This document shows, one piece after another, positions 12,394 through 26,014 of a DNA stretch of 26,639 bases (within the stretch, counting starts at the first letter, position 1; every line of letters starts with the position of its first letter). Location of the stretch: positions 1 through 26,639 of the IMG/VR virus record IMGVR_UViG_3300046454_000099. One strand, given 5' to 3'. Made by a program: the position numbers and the translations under genes. The notes below the pieces were generated by a model that was not told the DNA's origin, did not search any database, and worked only from the letters and a program-made list of their open reading frames with translations. This DNA is from a virus.

Positions 12394-12647
12394 CAGAGAA
12401 CAACTCCACGCAACGCATAGCTACCATAAATCAGAATGCCAACCCACCACACGTTACGAATGGCCCAATTACGCATAGCAAGCATTGGCCTACCGAGCGT
12501 GCCTGCCATCTCATACATGTGATACCACGACATCTCTAACTGCGCTTGCTGATTTTCCTCTTCAGCATAGACCAGTTCCGACTCGTCATCATATGGCGCT
12601 ATATCAATCGTGCGATGGAGAAACGGCGAGAATTCAGAGCCCGTCAT
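12393..12647 (-). CDS. Small protein with a C-terminal membrane helix
   Basis: An 84-residue protein from ATG 12647 (MTGSEFSPFL), overlapping the gp10-like gene by 14 bases; starts at 12662 (ATG) or 12665 (TTG) are possible and none has a strong ribosome-binding site. The middle is acidic (YDDESELVYAEEENQQ) and residues 61-84 form a hydrophobic segment (NVWWVGILIYGSYALRGVVL). A C-terminal membrane anchor among head-completion genes is unusual. Function unknown. Confidence 0.55.
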   Translation of the reverse strand: MTGSEFSPFLHRTIDIAPYDDESELVYAEEENQQAQLEMSWYHMYEMAGTLGRPMLAMRNWAIRNVWWVGILIYGSYALRGVVL

Positions 12648-14103
12648 TGTTGATGAATGCATCAATGATGCGCCACGGAATCGGGTCCGTGACCACCATC
12701 TTGTTCACACGGTCACGCGGCGTGCCCATCCGCCACATACGAAGCCGCCGTTTGTATTGCCCCATCTTGCCAGCAGAGAGCGAGCGTTCATTCCCCCACG
12801 TATTGCCGCCATCATCGCTCGTCGTGAACATCACCTGTGGATCGGATCCGAGCACCGTGGCACTGGAGGCTGCGCCTTCTTTCAACCCCAAACCAGACTG
12901 CAGATAAATCTCCATGTTCCGAATCGGGACTTGCTGCTTCTGATCGAAGATGCCTGGCGCGATGCGCGTGCGACGAATCGCGGATCCGTCAGCTTCGGTG
13001 CCAGTCGTGATACTCATCGCGCAAATATTGGCTGTCGTGAAATCTGCCGTCAGATGCTTCCCGAAGGCGTAGGTATGCACGCGAGCACGCCACGGTTCAT
13101 CCATCATCGTGTTTGGATTCCAATAGCTACGCTTGGCCCACTTGTTCTCTTCGATGTCATAGGCCCATGTGACCTTGGCTGTAGGGAAGTGCAGGATGTA
13201 GAAGGTGTGTCCTTCTTCCTGATAGACGAACGCTTCCGCATCGGTGATGGTGGAGTCACGTTCATAGGACGCGATGGCTGTCTCGACGGCGGCATCGCTG
13301 ATTGGCGTCGGTGAATAGCCGCGAGTCCTCACGACGATTCCGCCACCGTCATCATTGCGACTGAGCCAGAACAATGACGCACCAGACGCTTTGAGCGTGA
13401 ATGGGGCGACGATCCCATACTTGTAACTCAGCCCGGTGCGAGGCGCGAATGGAAATGGGAATGTGCCAGCGTCATACCAGATGTCTCCGGTCTTGCTGCC
13501 AATCAGCCAAACGTCTGGCGCCACGATCGCCATCGCCACCCAGTTGTCTGGAGCCGACGAGCGAGACACGAACTGAAGTGGATCCCATGTCGTGCCGTCG
13601 TTCAGACCAGAGATACGCATCGTGCTGGTGAGTGGGTCTAAGACGGCAAAATAACCGTCGAGCATGCCAACCATGCCGCAATCGCCAGTCAGTTCTTGCG
13701 TGAGCGTATTCGTGGCGAGGTCGTGAAGATAACCGTTCGTGCCGCTCGCCACAAAGGCCTGATTCGCATTGGACCCGTTCGTCACGATCTGCGCTTGGTT
13801 CGTATCGTAGGAGACGAATCCATATCGCGTGAAGGTATTCACGCCAGTCGTGCTGACAGTCAGCTCACCGTAATCCTTCCCCATCACGCCGAAGGTGCGC
13901 CCATTCTCAGAGAACAACGCACGTCCTTGCGAGATCGAGGCGCCTGAGGCTACCCAGACAGAGAAGCCAGGTGTCGGATAAAGCGCAGCGGTATTCTTCG
14001 CATGTTGAGGTTGCGATTCATAATACCAGTTGATTGTCTCTTCAGGGTTAGCGGTGACGCTCTGCGTCTTATCGCTCACCCCGATGAAGCCTGGATACTT
14101 CAT
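12634..14103 (-). CDS. Packaged-DNA stabilisation protein, P22 gp10-like
   Basis: A 489-residue protein; P22 gp10 has 472. The N-terminus has the typical ETINWYYESQPQ and TAALYPTPGFSVW segments of this family, then repeated propeller-like blades (GTNGYLHDLATN, CGMVGMLDGYFAVLDP, SAPDNWVAMAIVAPDVWLIG, GHTFYILHFPTAKVTWAYD) and the late ENKWAKRSYW. In P22-type phages gp10 follows gp4 and plugs the portal channel after packaging. Here it also directly follows the gp4-like gene with an ATGA overlap, which supports the assignment. Confidence 0.8.
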   Translation of the reverse strand: MKYPGFIGVSDKTQSVTANPEETINWYYESQPQHAKNTAALYPTPGFSVWVASGASISQGRALFSENGRTFGVMGKDYGELTVSTTGVNTFTRYGFVSYDTNQAQIVTNGSNANQAFVASGTNGYLHDLATNTLTQELTGDCGMVGMLDGYFAVLDPLTSTMRISGLNDGTTWDPLQFVSRSSAPDNWVAMAIVAPDVWLIGSKTGDIWYDAGTFPFPFAPRTGLSYKYGIVAPFTLKASGASLFWLSRNDDGGGIVVRTRGYSPTPISDAAVETAIASYERDSTITDAEAFVYQEEGHTFYILHFPTAKVTWAYDIEENKWAKRSYWNPNTMMDEPWRARVHTYAFGKHLTADFTTANICAMSITTGTEADGSAIRRTRIAPGIFDQKQQVPIRNMEIYLQSGLGLKEGAASSATVLGSDPQVMFTTSDDGGNTWGNERSLSAGKMGQYKRRLRMWRMGTPRDRVNKMVVTDPIPWRIIDAFINNDGL

Positions 14104-15140
14104 GGCCCGGTATAGATCGAATACCGACGACTACCAAACATCAACTGTGGATCGCTCTGGAGGTCCATCAGGCGATTGTTCATGCGCTTGATATTAGCCT
14201 TCGATTCAGAGGCGCTCTGCATCAGGTATGGGTCCATCTGCTGCCCCTCCCTAAACTCAGGGAATAGTTCCAGTGCGAGCCCTTCTCGCATGAATCGGTT
14301 ATAGCCAGGCGGCAATGCAATCGTGTCGTTCACGCTCGAGAATCGGTTCACTTGCTGTGGGTAATAGAGCGCCCCTTGCAGACCTGTTCCGGTCACGGTC
14401 GGCCAGATCGTGAGTGTTCCCAGAGCCCCTGTATAGGTCGGATTGTAGTAGGCGTAGAACGGATACGTCGAGGTCAGCGACTTGAGCGCGAGCGAGGCTT
14501 CAGCATCTTCCGTCAGCAGCGTCAACTGCTGCTCAAATGGCACGGACAGATTCGCATTGATCCAGTTGATCTGATTGATGAATTGCGGACGGACGATATT
14601 CACATCGCCGCCTAGCCCGATCGTATATGTGGCTTGGCTTGGGACGAGGTTCCATGTCGTGCGCGTCACGGTGTAGATGCTCAGACGCTCGTTGCCGCAG
14701 ATGGAATCCACCCAGTCATTGAACCGATCGAAGGCATCGCTGAGGGAGTCTCCGCTGGGGTCTTCGTTCTCCTGAATGACGTTGATCCGCCGCATCGCGG
14801 CCTTGATCATATTCCGCACGGTGATAGAGGTGCCGCCAGTCGTGTTGGCGGATGCGACGGTTTGAGCCTCGGTGACCGTCGCCACCTGAATCGTCGCAGG
14901 GACAGCACCATTGCCGATGAAGGTGAAAGCGATGAGGACGTAATCGGTTTCAGCTGCGGTCGGTCGATAGGTGTAATAACCGTTACCCTCTGCCGTGCAG
15001 ATGCCACTCCCGACAGCGCCTAGCGTCTGCGTGCCGCCATCCCCGGTGACGTAGACCGTGACCGTTCCGGCAAAGGCTGCGCCTGTGGTCGCATTGACCA
15101 TCTGTGCGCCGATGACTTGTCCCGATGCTGCTCTGATCAT
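14100..15140 (-). CDS. gp4-like head-tail adaptor with extra N-terminal beta domain
   Basis: A 346-residue protein, more than twice the length of P22 gp4 (166). Residues about 104-346 (TVRNMIKAAMRRINVIQENE, SDAFDRFNDWVDSICGNERL, TWNLVPSQATYTIGLGGD, TYPFYAYYNPTY, ALPPGYNRFMREGLALELFP, SKANIKRMNNR) match the gp4-like adaptor proteins of podophages. Residues 1-90 (SGQVIGAQMVNATTGAAFAG, GNGYYTYRPTAAETDYVLIA) look like an Ig-like or decoration domain seen elsewhere in phage virion proteins. The adaptor would bind the portal ring and recruit the gp10-like protein; the added domain may project outward. Confidence 0.75.
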   Translation of the reverse strand: MIRAASGQVIGAQMVNATTGAAFAGTVTVYVTGDGGTQTLGAVGSGICTAEGNGYYTYRPTAAETDYVLIAFTFIGNGAVPATIQVATVTEAQTVASANTTGGTSITVRNMIKAAMRRINVIQENEDPSGDSLSDAFDRFNDWVDSICGNERLSIYTVTRTTWNLVPSQATYTIGLGGDVNIVRPQFINQINWINANLSVPFEQQLTLLTEDAEASLALKSLTSTYPFYAYYNPTYTGALGTLTIWPTVTGTGLQGALYYPQQVNRFSSVNDTIALPPGYNRFMREGLALELFPEFREGQQMDPYLMQSASESKANIKRMNNRLMDLQSDPQLMFGSRRYSIYTGP

Positions 15141-15169: not shown

Positions 15170-16564
15170 TCAACAATTCACTGAGAAAACATGAACAACA
15201 GGTCGATGATCACCTTCACTATTCCGGGCCGTCATAAACAGCAGTTTGCTCGTCGGCTCAAACCATGCGCCTCCATGCGCGTTCTGGCATGGGGCCAGCT
15301 CAGGGAAACTGCTCCCTCCTGGCATATCCACGAAGAGTGCAGCAGACGTGACTGGCGGTAAGAGGACCGAAGATTTCGATCCGAGCGCCACCGCCAGCAA
15401 GTCGGCGGGATCGTAGATCCACATGGACGATTGCATCGAGACAGTGCCTGGTCCCGTCGCCTCGTTGCCGTAGTGCGTGTCGTTCTGCCCATGGGCGCAC
15501 ATCTTCAGCGAACCAAACACCTGCGCCGGTCCATACCACGTATGAACTCGTCCATCTGGCGGATAGCTCCCTGACAGAGACGCCACGGTTCTGGCGAGTT
15601 GGCCCATGAACACCACGCCTTGTTTAGTCGTCCCGTTAATCCAGACGGAGGCTGTGACGTTATCCAGAGCCGTAAAGACATCTACTTGTCCAAACTGCAC
15701 ACCGCAGAACGCTCCATCAATGTTGCAGCCGCTGCCATCCTGCACGGGGTTAGCTTGCGGCTGATGCGCGAAGTCTCCCCCCTCTCCGTAATGGGTCCAT
15801 CCGCAATCATCCACATCGTTTGGCCGTGACTGTTTATTGGAGATGTCCGAGTAGATCAGCGTCGTGACAGGCACGCTCACATGACCATCCTGATAGCCAT
15901 CTGGAGGCGTGCTGTTCGCCGGCACGTTACACGCCGATGACGCCACTCCCCATGGTGAGCCAGAATTGCCAGACCCAATAGGAGCCCCACAGAGAATCCG
16001 GCCTTGCAAGGTCGCTTGGTAGGCTGAAGGAACAGGCATCATGTAGCCAGCAGTGAAGCCTGAGAATTGGGAGGTGCGCCACGGACCGAAGGGTTGCACA
16101 GTAGGCAGACTGAGAATCGTGCTTCCGAAACTCGGATTCCAATCGAATCCCACGTTGTATTGATCCTGATAGGACCAGAGGAGTTGACCAGCTACCTCGT
16201 CCCAGAGCAGACCTCGCGTCGGTTTCGGATTTGATGATCCGACCTTACCGCCCAAGGTCACATCCCACCAGTTCTGAACAAGCGTGCAGACGGTTCCAGT
16301 ACCGTTGTATTTGATTTCGTAGACGGGATCGGGCCATCCCGTTTCAGCTTGTGAGCCGCAGATCAAGAGATTGATGTCTGATCCCACCTTTCGACCTGTG
16401 AGCGCACCCATCGAATAAGAGAATTTGACGCCGTTCGGCTGGTCATCTGGCGGCATCGTCACAAAGCCCAGATAGGTGAAATCGCTGGTGTGCAGCAGTG
16501 ACGGATTGACGGGCGCGGAAGAAGACACGACTGGGATGCCATGACGACGCTGTATGTAATGCAC
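15170..16564 (-). CDS. Large beta-rich virion protein, possible propeller or host-contact protein
   Basis: A 464-residue protein. I chose GTG 16564 because it overlaps the previous TAG and has GGAG eight bases before; a TTG at 16591 is possible but lies inside the previous gene. Repeated strand motifs with Trp and Gly (LLWDEVAGQLLWSYQDQY, GPWRTSQFSGFTAGY, HGGAWFEPTSKLLFMTA) suggest a beta-propeller or similar fold. About ten Cys are spread along the protein, including SGCNIDGAFCG, which is rare in a cytoplasmically made virion protein. It follows the Trp/Pro-repeat gene and could serve in surface binding. No family recognised. Confidence 0.6.
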   Translation of the reverse strand: MHYIQRRHGIPVVSSSAPVNPSLLHTSDFTYLGFVTMPPDDQPNGVKFSYSMGALTGRKVGSDINLLICGSQAETGWPDPVYEIKYNGTGTVCTLVQNWWDVTLGGKVGSSNPKPTRGLLWDEVAGQLLWSYQDQYNVGFDWNPSFGSTILSLPTVQPFGPWRTSQFSGFTAGYMMPVPSAYQATLQGRILCGAPIGSGNSGSPWGVASSACNVPANSTPPDGYQDGHVSVPVTTLIYSDISNKQSRPNDVDDCGWTHYGEGGDFAHQPQANPVQDGSGCNIDGAFCGVQFGQVDVFTALDNVTASVWINGTTKQGVVFMGQLARTVASLSGSYPPDGRVHTWYGPAQVFGSLKMCAHGQNDTHYGNEATGPGTVSMQSSMWIYDPADLLAVALGSKSSVLLPPVTSAALFVDMPGGSSFPELAPCQNAHGGAWFEPTSKLLFMTARNSEGDHRPVVHVFSVNC

Positions 16565-18588
16565 TAATGCGTCTCCGGTTGAGGCGCCCAAGGTCCAACA
16601 ATCTGGTTACTGTTCGTCGCCCATTCTGGATTGAATGGAGGAGGCGCAGCACCACTGATGGTTTGCATTGGCTTCACTGATTGTGCTGCCCAATGCTGGA
16701 CCCATTGATTGACTAAAGCTCCGAGATTCGCATTACTGATCGACCTGACAGGAGGAGGAGCCGTTCCAGACGGCAGACTCGCCGTCATGTTCCGCGCACG
16801 CTGTGCGTTCCAAGCCGGTTGCCACGGACTGACCAATTCACTGATGGCCGTGACTGACAGTGGTCCATGCGGTGTCGGAGGCGCGAATGGCGTCGGCGGA
16901 ACGAATGCGGTCAGCCGCTGAGGCTCAGGCCAGTCGGTCGGCCACGATCGCACCAGTTCGCTGACTGCTGTCGCGGACAGTGGTCCCTGCGGAACAGGTG
17001 GAGCACTTGGCGTCGGCGGCACGAACGTCGTCAGACGCTGAGGTTCAGGCCAGTCGCTGGACCATGCCTGCCGAATGACCCACTGTTGCGGACTGTATGG
17101 ACCGTGCGGATTTGGCTGATCTGGTGAATTGACCGGGATCAGGACATTGGAATCGACAACAACGATCTGGAGGTCTGGGAACGCTGCGGCCCAGATGCCT
17201 GGATTCAGCCAGCCTGTCTGATGCGTCGGATATTGCCCAGTGAAGTTGTCGGCTATGAAATTATCGAGCAGGGCTGGCGAGGCGATGTCGTTGACGAAGA
17301 TGCCAGGCTGTCCAGTCGTGACGGCGGTATCGGTTTGTGTCGTGCCGATCTGCGCGGTATTGAGGAACATCTGCAGCGCAGATCCGATGACCTGTAGACG
17401 ATAGATATCTCCATCAACGAGGGTGAGTCCTGAAACGGTCTGGATGGCCGTGCCGACGCCAGCGACGGTCTGGTAGAGCGTGATCGTGCCACCGCTGGCA
17501 TCTCCCACCATCGCATAGGAGGCATCCCCTGATGGTGAGATGCGAACGACGATGCCTGGAGTATCCCCACCGTATGCGGCAATCGTGACTTGGGCAAACT
17601 GGTCTGGAGAGAATGTGGTTTCTTTCCAGAACGAAAGATTCTGACCGACTGCTCCTGGGAAGGCGTTGATGCCATTGGTTTCAAAATTCCCAATGACGTT
17701 TGTCCAGTTGCATGACCCGAGTGAAGTCCCGTAGTTGACGTTGAACTCGTCATGCGCTGGGAGCCCCACCGGCTGACACATCAGCGGGGCAATCTTGTTC
17801 TCCTGATTGTTCGGCGCCTGTAGACGTGGCTCTAGCGATGCCGGCCATGAGGCCAGCACGGCATTCAGCGATGGCGTCTTCTGGGATGGTAGAGGCGGCG
17901 GAATGAATGTCGGTGGAGTGACATGCCGTGCCGACTGCGCGGACCATTCCGTCGGCCATGACCGCTGCGCGACCGAATAGTATGGAGCGGCTAGCGGACC
18001 ACGAATGGGAGGTGGATCTGGATTATCAGGTCCGATCGTCCACGTCGTAACGAGGTCAATCTCCGCTGGCTCATGCCACGACGCAAGGATACTCAGTGGC
18101 TGTCGCGCAATCGGCGGATTCGCCGCTGGTGGAGGCGGCAAGACCGCTGCCGTGCCAAACGCTCGTTGTGCCGGCCATGCCGGGAGCCATTGACCATAGA
18201 CATGCGTCAGTGGCGTGTTGTAAGGAACTGGCGGCTGAACGATTGGCGGAGGCGGAATGACCGCCGCATTGCCAATAATCGTCTGCGCGGACCATTCCGT
18301 CTTCCATTGCCCGATGATCGGATGGATCTGAAGCGTGAACGGGATTTGTGGCGGAACAAATGGCGGCGGCGGAATGACCGCTGCATTCTTGACTTGCTGA
18401 TTGTTCGGCGCCTGAAGTCTGGGCTCAAGGTCTGCCGGCCATGAGGCCAACACGACGGCCATCGCCAGAACTGCCTGCACTTGCCGACGAGGAGGCTGAT
18501 CGCCAGTTGATCCCTGTGGCTCATGCGGCACAGGAGGTGTGACACTCGATGATTGCGACGGCGGTGGAGGCGGATAGAAAAACGCCAT
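16564..18588 (-). CDS. Trp/Pro-repeat virion protein with central beta-sandwich domain
   Basis: A 674-residue protein. About eleven copies of a roughly 40-residue unit run through it: a Pro run (such as VIPPPPFVPP), a short hydrophobic stretch, then WxxxW followed by AQ or EPQ. The Trp pairs fall near W95/W99, W134/W138, W211/W215, W509/W513, W549/W553, W589/W593 and W629/W633; variants with WPADLEPRLQAPNN occur at 50 and WPASL at 248. Residues about 278-450 (DEFNVNYGTSLGSCNWTNVI to NFIADNF) interrupt the repeats with a single beta-sandwich of the concanavalin/LamG type. This looks like an extended or ring-like scaffold carrying a carbohydrate-binding-like domain. It lies in the block between coat and adaptor genes; I do not know a described family with this layout. 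Confidence 0.7.
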   Translation of the reverse strand: MAFFYPPPPPSQSSSVTPPVPHEPQGSTGDQPPRRQVQAVLAMAVVLASWPADLEPRLQAPNNQQVKNAAVIPPPPFVPPQIPFTLQIHPIIGQWKTEWSAQTIIGNAAVIPPPPIVQPPVPYNTPLTHVYGQWLPAWPAQRAFGTAAVLPPPPAANPPIARQPLSILASWHEPAEIDLVTTWTIGPDNPDPPPIRGPLAAPYYSVAQRSWPTEWSAQSARHVTPPTFIPPPLPSQKTPSLNAVLASWPASLEPRLQAPNNQENKIAPLMCQPVGLPAHDEFNVNYGTSLGSCNWTNVIGNFETNGINAFPGAVGQNLSFWKETTFSPDQFAQVTIAAYGGDTPGIVVRISPSGDASYAMVGDASGGTITLYQTVAGVGTAIQTVSGLTLVDGDIYRLQVIGSALQMFLNTAQIGTTQTDTAVTTGQPGIFVNDIASPALLDNFIADNFTGQYPTHQTGWLNPGIWAAAFPDLQIVVVDSNVLIPVNSPDQPNPHGPYSPQQWVIRQAWSSDWPEPQRLTTFVPPTPSAPPVPQGPLSATAVSELVRSWPTDWPEPQRLTAFVPPTPFAPPTPHGPLSVTAISELVSPWQPAWNAQRARNMTASLPSGTAPPPVRSISNANLGALVNQWVQHWAAQSVKPMQTISGAAPPPFNPEWATNSNQIVGPWAPQPETH

Positions 18589-18589
18589 G

Positions 18590-19348
18590 CTATTGCGTCA
18601 GAATAGGCGCCATGTAGTTATTGCGTGGCACTTGTGTTGACGACACAGCCGAGAGTTTATAGACCAATACGGCCATATTCCAATTGACCGTGCCGCTGGC
18701 CCACGTCACTTCTGCGCGAGCGGTCGATCCAGAGGAGCCAGAATCCGCATCCTCCAGCAACGCCTCTTCAGTGGAACTGGCATCGAGTTTCGCGAAGACG
18801 CTATACGTCGTATCGACTGTGCCAGCCGAAAGAGTTTTGCTCACCCCGTCGTCCGCATAGGCGCCGATCTTGAGTTCGTTCGCCGCCGTGGTCGTGCCTG
18901 CGGTCGTGCCAGAATCCGCTGGACCAGTTGAACCGACAGAGTTCGCCTTACTAATGTCTATAGCCGCTGCCGCTCCTACGGCTGTCGAGATTCCGCTATA
19001 CGCGCCAATGGCGACCGCTGCGCCACCCGTCGCCGTCAGGTTCCCGCTAAATGTGACCGTGATATGCGTGACACTGGTGCCATTCGCGACCGTGCTCCAC
19101 ACCTCCAGGCAACCGAAATCTGACCCGTAATCCTTCTGCTCTTGGAGGTCACGGTTCCATGTATTGCCTTGCGTATCGGTGATACTCGAAACAGAGAAGG
19201 CGCCTGCTGAATGGATAGTGCTGACGCCAATCACGGCAATGACACGATCGTTGGCGACCGTGGCCGCTCCGAGATCGCCGAAGTCTTTTGATGTGCCGGC
19301 ATTCTCTGTTCCGGTGAGAATCGCGCCGGCCCTACGTGCCCATGCCAT
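18590..19348 (-). CDS. Beta-rich virion-associated protein, unknown
   Basis: A 252-residue protein rich in Ala, Thr, Ser and Gly, with strand motifs (VIAVIGVSTIHSAGAFSVS, ITDTQGNTWNRDLQEQKDYG, HITVTFSGNLTATGGAAVAI, GTVNWNMAVLVYKLS). The style fits phage decoration or tail-associated domains also found in many metagenomic phages. Its ATG overlaps the previous stop. The last residues (VPRNNYMAPILTQ) precede the repeat protein with a one-base gap. Confidence 0.6.
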   Translation of the reverse strand: MAWARRAGAILTGTENAGTSKDFGDLGAATVANDRVIAVIGVSTIHSAGAFSVSSITDTQGNTWNRDLQEQKDYGSDFGCLEVWSTVANGTSVTHITVTFSGNLTATGGAAVAIGAYSGISTAVGAAAAIDISKANSVGSTGPADSGTTAGTTTAANELKIGAYADDGVSKTLSAGTVDTTYSVFAKLDASSTEEALLEDADSGSSGSTARAEVTWASGTVNWNMAVLVYKLSAVSSTQVPRNNYMAPILTQ

Positions 19349-20124
19349 TAGAGACTCAGCGCCTCATAGAAGGTGAAGCCGTAAAGGGTGATGTCGCTTG
19401 TCGCGCCGAAGTCGTGACAGAAGCTACCCATCCCTGGATTGCCATCAGACCAAATGACTGAATCCGGTCCACCTGGATTACTGCCAGCGCCTCCATCGTT
19501 TCCTGTGGAGGTGTTATAGGTGCCAGCCTGAAACTCGACACCGACGCCATTGCCACCGTTGAAGCCAGCGATTGTGAGGTAACTCGTCAGCACCGATCCG
19601 ATAGCCGTGGCACGTATTTGGTCGCCGGTATGCATCACCCAGCTAGCATTATCGGTATGGAGAAGCGCCGTGAAACTGCCGATGGCTCCATTCCACCGAA
19701 TAATTTCGATATAGGGATCGGCTGGATAGCCTGGGATACGGACATTGAACTCATAGCCACGGTTGATGCCTATAGAGAGGGCTGACCGCAGCCGCATCTC
19801 TACTTCAGAGTTCCAATTCCCTGCAGTGCGTGTCGTGAAGATGGTGCCTCTCGCTTGCTGGTTATTACTCCACGTGCCAGTGAGGAGCGCCGTGGAATCA
19901 TCATAGATACTGGCTGCGCTTCCTGTCTCAGTCCCGATGGCTTTGCCGCTTGGACTCACGCGCATATTCGTCCAATCACGCCCATTGGTCTGCCCGTTGA
20001 TCCAGAGTCCGCTTTCTGAGAGCGGATTTTCTACGAGCGGAAACGAGGTGGAATAGGACGCATGGAAAGGCGAGGGAGGCGTGACGGTCCTCCCTCGCTT
20101 CGTTGGAATGTAATACTTCGGCAT
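19348..20124 (-). CDS. Concanavalin/LamG-like virion protein
   Basis: A 258-residue protein starting MPKYYIPTKRGRTVTPPSPF. From about residue 25 it shows the strand pattern of a concanavalin-like lectin domain: LWINGQTNGRDWTNM, YDDSTALLTGTWSNNQQA, EVEMRLRSALSIGINRGYEF, YIEIIRWNGAIGSFTALL, and DITLYGFTFYEAL at the end. Such domains bind sugars or act as structural domains in phage virions. The start is preceded by an unusual hairpin (20127-20138) that may position the ribosome-binding site. Confidence 0.65.
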   Translation of the reverse strand: MPKYYIPTKRGRTVTPPSPFHASYSTSFPLVENPLSESGLWINGQTNGRDWTNMRVSPSGKAIGTETGSAASIYDDSTALLTGTWSNNQQARGTIFTTRTAGNWNSEVEMRLRSALSIGINRGYEFNVRIPGYPADPYIEIIRWNGAIGSFTALLHTDNASWVMHTGDQIRATAIGSVLTSYLTIAGFNGGNGVGVEFQAGTYNTSTGNDGGAGSNPGGPDSVIWSDGNPGMGSFCHDFGATSDITLYGFTFYEALSL

Positions 20125-23815: not shown

Positions 23816-25057
23816 TTAACCCCACACTCTGCACGCCAGACGTGCCTGAAGAGTGGCCGCGCCGATCAGAATGTCCATACGATTGGGATTCTGGTCGGTG
23901 CCAATCTGATACTGCTCGACATACCGGATGGAAATGCCCAGCGTCTTGTCCTGCACCGAGTAGCTATTCGCACCAGCGCCAGGCTTCTTCAAGTCGGCCA
24001 TGACGAACGCGAAGGCGTCTGGATGGTAAACGAATGACTGACGTGAAGCCGTCGCGACGAGCGTGCCAGAAGTCTTCGAGGAGGCTCCGAGCACCGTGAT
24101 GCCGGCGCCAGAGGCTGGCGAAGCGTCCACCGTCTGCAACTGACCAGAGGTGATGATGGACGGGCTAATCGGCAGAGCGGTCATATTGCCGCTGCTGTCT
24201 GAGGTCGTCGCCGTCACCACGAACTGCTGGAGGCGTCCGTTGCTCGCATAGGACAGCGGGTTCACGCTGTTGACCGCATCAAGCACGATGATGTCGCCCT
24301 TGTTCAACGTCGTGGAACCGGAGGCCCATGCCTGCGTGTTCAGCGTCGAACCAGTCTGGTTCGCGCCGTTCACGGTCGGAGTCGCCGTCGATGTCCATGA
24401 ACCAGTCGTATGCGTCGGCGTGACCGGATCCTGATACCACTCGGAGACGCCGAGGTTCATTCCCGAGAACTGGCCTTCCTTCCAGAAGGAACTTACGGAA
24501 CTCTGTGGATTGAATTGCGTGTAAGTCGCATTCGCGATGGTCTGCATCGCGAGCGGATCCAAACAGGCCACGCGGCCCTTGAGCGGAGTCGCGAGGTCCG
24601 TGAGTTTGGTGCCAGCCTGCAGATAGGTCAGCGTGGCATTTGGCGTCGTCCCAGGCGTGCCGACTGACGAGTAGATGTCCCGGTAGACCGCCTGAAACGC
24701 CAACACTTCAGAGGCACTCGCAAGGGCTTCCGCAGCGGGTTTGGTATACCGCTCACGGATGAACTGAATCTCAGTCGTCGCCTGTGCGCTTGAGTAACTC
24801 GTCGCGACGTTTTTTTGATTTGTGAGCGTGATCGGAACAGTCTGATCGAAGATGTTCTGTACCTGCAGCGCCTGTCCGTCAGTCACCGTGAAACGCTGGG
24901 GCAGTCTCGCGTTCACCGTGTTACCAACCACAGCTCCCGCCTGCATGTACTGATCGTCGTAGGTCCGGTTGACGTTGCTCAGGAACGTCAGGTCGTTCAG
25001 GTAGCCTCTAGCAGTGTCCTTCGTCACCCATGAGGGTGTCGCAAGTGTATTCGGCAT
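23816..25057 (-). CDS. Major coat protein, P22 gp5-like
   Basis: A 413-residue protein (P22 gp5 has 430). The N-terminus TPSWVTKDTARGYLNDL, then YDDQYMQAGAVVGNTVNARL, VTLTNQKNVATSYSSAQ-like TLTNQKNVATSYSSAQATTE, and late segments RQSFVYHPDAFAFVMADL and LGISIRYVEQYQIGTDQNP are the conserved blocks of P22-type HK97-fold coat proteins. Residues about 215-335 (TGSWTSTATPTVNGANQTG onward) correspond to the inserted I-domain. It follows the scaffold gene, as in P22. The ATG has no strong ribosome-binding site within 12 bases, odd for the most abundant virion protein; coupling to the scaffold gene may compensate. Confidence 0.9.
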   Translation of the reverse strand: MPNTLATPSWVTKDTARGYLNDLTFLSNVNRTYDDQYMQAGAVVGNTVNARLPQRFTVTDGQALQVQNIFDQTVPITLTNQKNVATSYSSAQATTEIQFIRERYTKPAAEALASASEVLAFQAVYRDIYSSVGTPGTTPNATLTYLQAGTKLTDLATPLKGRVACLDPLAMQTIANATYTQFNPQSSVSSFWKEGQFSGMNLGVSEWYQDPVTPTHTTGSWTSTATPTVNGANQTGSTLNTQAWASGSTTLNKGDIIVLDAVNSVNPLSYASNGRLQQFVVTATTSDSSGNMTALPISPSIITSGQLQTVDASPASGAGITVLGASSKTSGTLVATASRQSFVYHPDAFAFVMADLKKPGAGANSYSVQDKTLGISIRYVEQYQIGTDQNPNRMDILIGAATLQARLACRVWG

Positions 25058-25069
25058 TCGGAACTCGCA

Positions 25070-26014
25070 TTAGCGCACCCCTCGTTTGCTCTCGGCTTTG
25101 TTTTCCCGCGCATAGAAGGCGGAAAACGGTTCGTCATCACCGGGATCAGGAGCAGTGGCTACGGGCGAAGTTCCCAGCGGCTGGATGGGAGGTTTCGCGG
25201 AACTCACAACGGGCGGTTTGCGTTGAGCCGCAGGGGCAACAACAGACCGCGCAGATAACTTGCCGACGATTTCCCCAATTCGTCCGATCTGATCGATCGG
25301 GTGCAGGCCGAGGAGAGCCCGAGCTTCCGGGACATTCTGCGAGAGGTATTCCGCGATTTCTGGACCCTGTGCGTGGTTCTGGAGGAACGGCCACACCCGC
25401 TGGTCAATCGGTGTCTGGCTCAACCGCTGGTCGATGTCTGGCACACGCTGGCGAATCTCTGCCAGTTTTCCGGCCCATGTCTGGCCGACTACCGCCTGAT
25501 GGCGCTGCGCTTCGGTCTGCTGCGCGATCTTGCCGTATTCCTGGCGACTGATCCATGCCGCTTTGGCGAAGACCCATGAACTATACGGATCGGGATTCGC
25601 GGTCCCGTCCGGGAGCTTCATAAAGTCGGTCAGTGCGGGTTCAGCATCAGTCGGAGGCGCCGTTGCAGGTTGAGGATCTGTTCGCGCCTGGGGCTGTGGT
25701 GTGCGTGGCTCCGACCGCAGTCGGGCAAGTTCGGCTTGGTGAGCTTCGAGTTCGCGCTTCGCCTCATGTTTCGCGGCTGTGAGCGCATCGATTTCCTGTT
25801 GGATGGTGAGTTTACGACCTTCTTTGGTGCGCTTATCGACCTTCGGTTCGGTCGTCGCAGTCGTCGCGGCAGGTTCGGGTTCTGGCTCAGGTTCTGGCGT
25901 CGGTTCCGGTTCAGGCTCTGGATCGCCGCGCTCGAGCGCATTCTCACGCGCTACGAAGTCACTGAGCGATTCTTCAGGCTCTGCGACCGGCGCTTCAACC
26001 TGTTCGTCTGCCAT
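25070..26014 (-). CDS. Capsid scaffold protein
   Basis: A 314-residue protein (P22 gp8 has 303) directly upstream of the coat gene. Order: short N-terminal motif LSDFVARENALERG (17-30); an acidic Pro-Glu repeat (PEPEPEPTPEPEPEPEP, about 32-48); a charged coiled coil (about 65-100); a helical central region; and a C-terminal basic tail with PFSAFYARENKAESKRG. The acidic/helical composition and place before the coat gene are typical of podophage scaffolds. The same FxARENxxE motif occurs at both ends, an unusual symmetry that may reflect coat-binding peptides (inference). Confidence 0.8.
   Translation of the reverse strand: MADEQVEAPVAEPEESLSDFVARENALERGDPEPEPEPTPEPEPEPEPAATTATTEPKVDKRTKEGRKLTIQQEIDALTAAKHEAKRELEAHQAELARLRSEPRTPQPQARTDPQPATAPPTDAEPALTDFMKLPDGTANPDPYSSWVFAKAAWISRQEYGKIAQQTEAQRHQAVVGQTWAGKLAEIRQRVPDIDQRLSQTPIDQRVWPFLQNHAQGPEIAEYLSQNVPEARALLGLHPIDQIGRIGEIVGKLSARSVVAPAAQRKPPVVSSAKPPIQPLGTSPVATAPDPGDDEPFSAFYARENKAESKRGVR

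Follow-up and report, generated by a model that had tools for sequence, protein, structure and literature searches.

The window, the whole 26,639-base stretch of an IMG/VR virus record, carries on its minus strand a gene that starts with ATG at 18588, ends at 16564 and encodes a 674-residue protein rich in Trp and Pro. This Trp/Pro gene sits between P22-type scaffold and coat genes and adaptor and gp10 genes, and coat, scaffold and gp10-like closure proteins occur in order, as in a P22-like head module. The large ORFs at the usual position of ejection proteins lie elsewhere, downstream of gp10 and away from the Trp/Pro gene. The features of the locus are as follows.

12634–14103, minus strand: gp10-like head closure protein (phrog_578, head closure Hc3, 2.8e-80)
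14100–15140, minus strand: head-tail adaptor (phrog_12985, 1.3e-33; PF24175, 1.1e-5, just under the cutoff)
16564–18588, minus strand: Trp/Pro-repeat protein, 674 aa (ORF and translation, family alignment, dN/dS)
16567–16668, minus strand: conserved C-terminal region ending FNPEWATNSNQIVGPWAPQPETH (alignments)
16669–17220, minus strand: second block of Trp/Pro units, residues 457–640 (W509, W549, W589 and W629, exactly 40 apart; spacing, profile matches, dN/dS)
17221–17766, minus strand: inserted galectin/CBM66-like beta-sandwich, residues 275–456, optional in the family (AlphaFold2, Foldseek, PHROG matches of relatives, dN/dS)
17767–18378, minus strand: first block of Trp/Pro units, residues 71–274 (W95, W134, W171, W211, W248; spacing, profile matches, dN/dS)
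18379–18588, minus strand: conserved N-terminal region, residues 1–70, MAFFYPPPPP...RRQVQ...ASWPADLEPRLQAPNN, including the first unit variant (kept in all complete relatives; dN/dS)
18590–19348, minus strand: directly upstream (5') gene with an exchangeable beta-domain and a short C-terminal tail (locus comparison; homologous domain fused to DWPNP repeats elsewhere)
18593–18634, minus strand: 14-residue C-terminal tail QVPRNNYMAPILTQ of the upstream gene (peptide kept with synonymous changes at nine loci)
18637–20099, strand not given: exchanged two-gene cassette (blastn of the window against L003, L004 and L017)
23816–25057, minus strand: P22-type coat protein (PF11651, 4.7e-27; phrog_283, 1.8e-58)
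25070–26014, minus strand: scaffolding protein (phrog_8865, 2.6e-20)

The ORF at 15170–16591, immediately downstream, overlaps the Trp/Pro gene only if it uses a TTG start; relatives (L047:8134) suggest a start further in, at about 16456.

The protein contains 25 Trp and 109 Pro residues, of which 23 and 101, respectively, lie outside the insert. The protein has seven copies of the motif WxxxWx[AEPS][QP], compared with a mean of 0.07 and a maximum of 2 in 2000 shuffles, and PPP occurs 13 times (shuffle mean 2.8, maximum 12). Strict WxxxW motifs begin at residues 95, 134, 211, 509, 549, 589 and 629 with spacings of 39 or 40 plus one gap of 77, which equals two periods with a degenerate unit at W171 between them. 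Variant units are found at W50, W171, W248, approximately W466 and W667. The unit period is 37–42 residues (~39), and degenerate units stay in register. These results bear out the layout given in a preliminary description of this DNA, namely repeated units of a Pro run, a hydrophobic stretch and a WxxxW-AQ/EPQ motif. Its figure of about eleven units is in line with the 11–12 found here, and counting all variants moves the total to about 12. No tandem repeats were found at the DNA level across the gene, so the units have diverged, and a recent DNA satellite as their origin was rejected on the same ground.

Comparison of the window with L003, a 91% variant, gave a dN/dS of 0.14 for the whole gene. 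Regional values were 0.03 for residues 1–70, 0.02 for the insert, and 0.30 and 0.15 for the first and second repeat blocks; the last 34 residues, which offer few sites, have no nonsynonymous changes (dN/dS 0). Within the repeats, all 23 Trp and 95 of the 101 Pro residues are kept. Constraint is thus strongest at the ends and in the insert, and the repeats retain their Trp/Pro pattern and drift elsewhere. This pattern of selection marks the 674-residue ORF as a real gene, and a low-complexity artefact was rejected on this evidence.

Searches of IMG/VR, using as queries the protein, the genes around it and alignments, yielded about ten distinct relatives. L001 and L002 carry identical copies of the window protein, and L003 and L004 the 91% variant. 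More distant relatives that include the insert are L047, L048 and the fragment L020. Six others (L023, L025, L027, L033, L039 and L041; 413–605 aa) have uninterrupted repeats spaced 33–42 residues apart, nearly all 37–42. All complete members begin with MAFFY and end with EWAxNSNQ..GP..QPETH, and the number of units differs between these constant ends. Units within one relative are on average only about 25% identical to each other. A unit profile built from L023, L025, L027 and L033, with the window excluded, scores 72.9 bits against the window protein, compared with 5.6 bits for the best of 200 shuffles. With this match, the constant ends and a period of ~39, the window protein belongs to a WPxxWPAQ repeat family. 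Among 6363 ORFs the profile found no protein outside the family.

Neither Pfam nor PHROGs contains a family that matches the repeats of the window protein or of L025, and the repeats have no match among PDB sequences. Queried by tblastn with the Trp/Pro proteins, the INPHARED phage records yielded no repeat relative; three Mycobacterium phage matches (E 0.3–8) were taken as chance or as generic likeness to the insert. A search of the genome collection with the Trp/Pro alignment also found none, nor was there a Trp/Pro protein in the examined stretch of the phages nearest by adaptor gene (EBPR podovirus 1, VvAW1, Rhodoferax P26218 and others), and a literature search returned nothing on such repeats. 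Judged by Pfam, PHROGs, PDB and INPHARED sequence searches, the Trp/Pro repeat proteins are an undescribed virus family. A 49-kb contig, IMGVR_UViG_3300046475_000195, has two ~60%-identical Trp/Pro genes (L035 and L043) about 42.7 kb apart; instead of being two copies, they may represent the overlapping ends of one circular genome that was assembled from two strains.

Modeled alone with AlphaFold2 from seven aligned sequences, the insert has a mean pLDDT of 65 and a pTM of 0.69, with a core at 76–92, i.e., moderate confidence. A Foldseek search of the PDB with this model returned 78 matches at E ≤ 0.001. The top matches are CBM66 (1.8e-5, TM ~0.6) and galectins (1.5e-4), at identities of about 11–15%, followed by SPRY domains, alginate lyases and the central fibre of phage Douge. 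Matches in BFVD include phage minor tail, tail fibre and DUF7257 proteins. Pfam has no match for the insert in the window protein, L047 or L048; in PHROGs, the inserts of L047 and L048 give weak matches to tail and virion-structural families. A 1129-residue protein (L155:4158–7544) also contains a relative of the insert. On the basis of the Foldseek and PHROG matches and the L155 relative, the lectin-like label is supported as a description of the fold. The insert would probably bind a surface or matrix glycan; SPRY domains, which also match this fold, are mostly protein-binding.

The insert thus largely confirms what had been proposed from the window alone: a single lectin-like beta-sandwich at about residues 278–450 (here ~275–456) in a layout matching no described family. 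That the domain splits the repeats is correct for the window protein and fails as a rule for the family. The insert is absent from L023, L025, L027 and L033, and because most distinct relatives have uninterrupted repeats, it is an optional addition.

For the whole chain, AlphaFold2 gave a mean pLDDT of 28 from a five-sequence alignment, with 20–30 across the repeats; with this input, low pLDDT cannot separate disorder from an uninformative alignment. The preliminary description also proposed a repeating rigid or adhesive structure, and rigidity or adhesiveness is at most a putative property of the array. Helices of very low confidence at residues 539–547, 590–601 and 619–632 overlap or adjoin the Trp motifs of some units. 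The consensus suggests that the unit is probably a helix-Trp-polyproline element: a short helix with an S/T-x-x-E cap would lead into WPxxW and on to AQ or EPQ, and the extended, proline-rich stretch that comes after these may pack against the Trp. In the Trp-cage miniprotein, a short helix carries a Trp and a polyproline stretch comes next. Purely by analogy, each Trp/Pro unit could fold in this way.

The upstream gene at 18590–19348 ends in a tail of the type YMxxILTQ. In nine compared loci the tail is retained with synonymous codon changes, and some of the domains in front of it share little or no similarity. Altogether the tail occurs at 12 listed loci, each time directly before a Trp/Pro gene and on several different domains. 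The cassette at 18637–20099 has no nucleotide homology to L003 or L004, and both of its flanks are 90–93% identical; homology between the window and L003 starts again at about 18636, at the tail. L048 and L019 have the same upstream domain (66% identity); in L019, which lacks the Trp/Pro gene, that domain carries another tail and the next gene encodes a different Pro-rich repeat protein. Tail and Trp/Pro gene need not occur together, since in L033 the Trp/Pro gene has no tagged neighbour. Part of the tail region coincides with the region where translation of the next gene starts, and some of its conservation may therefore be at the DNA level.

Several of the related phages (L023, L025, L027 and others) encode, just before the adaptor gene, a second Trp/Pro protein of about 300 residues with a DWPNP repeat. 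The C-terminal region of these proteins is nearly identical to that of the Trp/Pro family (FKPEWAADSNQLLGPTRTQPETH), including the ending seen in the window protein. The pattern F.Q.DWPNP, searched at the DNA level, is present in 95 IMG/VR stretches, and 77 ORFs were found among the 80 loci read. The period is ~34 (median 34), with double and triple peaks, and the genes examined adjoin terminase, portal, coat or tail genes. This class is widespread in podovirus-like contigs, and it has no name in the libraries searched. It resembles the Trp/Pro family in its tandem Trp/Pro-anchored units, constant period and head/tail gene neighbourhood, and differs in unit motif and period. The window protein falls outside it, with a period of 39 and only the C-terminal region in common, and the WPxxWPAQ unit profile matches none of the DWPNP ORFs. 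The DNA pattern occurs in 37 stretches of 257 Gb of cellular genomes, nearly all as single matches; several matches per contig were seen only in two contigs of one Ignavibacteria MAG. We take the isolated cellular matches to be mostly due to chance.

In L071 and L128, a domain of the type found upstream of the Trp/Pro gene is fused in front of DWPNP repeats, and iterated searches placed L055, L107 and others in the same arrangement, the later rounds being weaker evidence. The last ten residues of genes upstream of DWPNP genes are unusually hydrophobic and Met-rich (p ~1e-5 with kinship ignored), and an LxAQIxM-like tail recurs in DWPNP phages on proteins most of which bear no similarity to one another. 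Tails such as DVLMGQAWM or NILFAQIMM are present in L059, L064, L073, L077, L079, L082, L089, L111 and L138, with one similar pair; some of these proteins directly precede DWPNP genes, and others have no repeat gene after them. Several DWPNP proteins among L055–L134 have at their end either a further short Trp repeat, QTPNWxxVxDS (e.g., L060 and L055), or a GGxARAxxLTxxQRxxIAxxAAxxRW tail (e.g., L081 and L079).

Several pieces of evidence suggest that the Trp/Pro protein is a virion accessory of a phage with a P22-type head: (i) the head-gene context; (ii) the conserved period, the profile score and the conservation of Trp; (iii) the constant ends, between which unit number varies, and the optional insert; (iv) the Foldseek matches of the insert and its relative in L155; and (v) the location of DWPNP genes beside terminase, portal, coat and tail genes. 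We hold this reading at roughly even confidence, the protein most likely being an extended fibre or decoration outside the head or neck of a phage that probably has a short tail. We infer virion membership from gene context and virion-type domain matches only, and the external position is putative; no signal separates a head from a tail location. In such an accessory, the constrained ends would, judging by their conservation, dock the chain, and the middle would form a tandem array of ~39-residue Trp/Pro units acting as a periodic spacer that becomes longer or shorter as units are gained or lost. In the lineage of the window, a galectin/CBM66-like domain would have been inserted into the array and displayed there.

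Part of the evidence points the other way. The repeats are less constrained than the ends (dN/dS 0.15–0.30), as is also expected of a flexible linker, SPRY domains share the predicted fold of the insert, and the whole-chain pLDDT is 28. A serious rival, which we judge possible and on balance rather unlikely, is an intrinsically disordered linker of the sticker-and-spacer type: the Trp motifs of the repeats would act as weak adhesive stickers, Pro residues would keep the chain open, and folded structure would be confined to the ends and the insert. The low pLDDT across the repeats, the low identity between units, the relaxed dN/dS and a Pro-rich composition poor in Gly and charge would all fit such a linker. 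However, the period stays mostly at 37–42 with degenerate units in register, every Trp and nearly all Pro residues are kept, and a pLDDT from five sequences is weak evidence. Position in the head gene block would also suit an internal or assembly protein, such as an ejection protein or assembly chaperone, that incidentally has Pro/Trp repeats. This we find improbable, since the galectin/fibre-like insert and the exchange of neighbouring genes are what is typically seen in exposed parts and the usual place of ejection proteins is occupied by other large ORFs.

The tails raise a further alternative, in which the units or the constant ends bind the tail of the upstream protein, so that display domains could be exchanged with the carrier unchanged, as on a scaffoldin. 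The constant placement of the tail before Trp/Pro genes, the exchange with L003/L004 that stops at the tail, the absence of both tail and Trp/Pro gene from L019, which has the domain, and the fusions in L071 and L128 are consistent with it. The untagged L033, the overlap of the tail with a translation start region and the similar tails on proteins with no repeat gene after them argue against it, and we regard it as highly doubtful. We give an equally slim chance to the broader proposal of a general class of carrier or scaffold in uncultured phages, as yet unnamed, that consists of Trp/Pro-repeat proteins and on which exchangeable display domains are mounted via short C-terminal tails. That these tails would be YMxxILTQ in the window group and LxAQIxM-like in DWPNP phages is put forward just as tentatively. 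Such a class would follow the logic of scaffoldin and dockerin and differ from it in using Trp/Pro units of 34–40 residues.

The virion accessory reading can be set beside known systems. CBM66, galectin and concanavalin-like domains resemble the insert in predicted fold and differ from it in the low identity and the lack of a Pfam match. Douge gp20 and the minor tail and DUF7257 proteins of Gordonia and Rhodococcus phages are likewise similar in insert fold and in the PHROG matches of L047 and L048. Those phages are long-tailed, and the tblastn search of phage records gave no repeat relative among them, whereas here the domain sits inside a repeat array in a phage with a P22-type head. To phage decoration proteins (reviewed in PMC7602432), the likeness would be a probable accessory, surface-displayed and modular role at the head, and we found no homology.

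The family adds a new tandem repeat to virion gene blocks, alongside a second and much wider class, and has a modular arrangement that combines exchangeable domains with ends or tails that stay constant; here, the virus group is known from metagenomes only. If the proposed reading is true, it would show how such phages vary their displayed domains, and the compact Trp/Pro repeat could be used as a protein spacer. Elsewhere in the window, the plus-strand gene at 571–1335 strongly matches phrog_2554 (6.4e-68), a family with no annotated function. In related phages, the same gene block also encodes large proteins with repeated IPT/TIG domains (L025:5227–7875 and L033:11124–14111).
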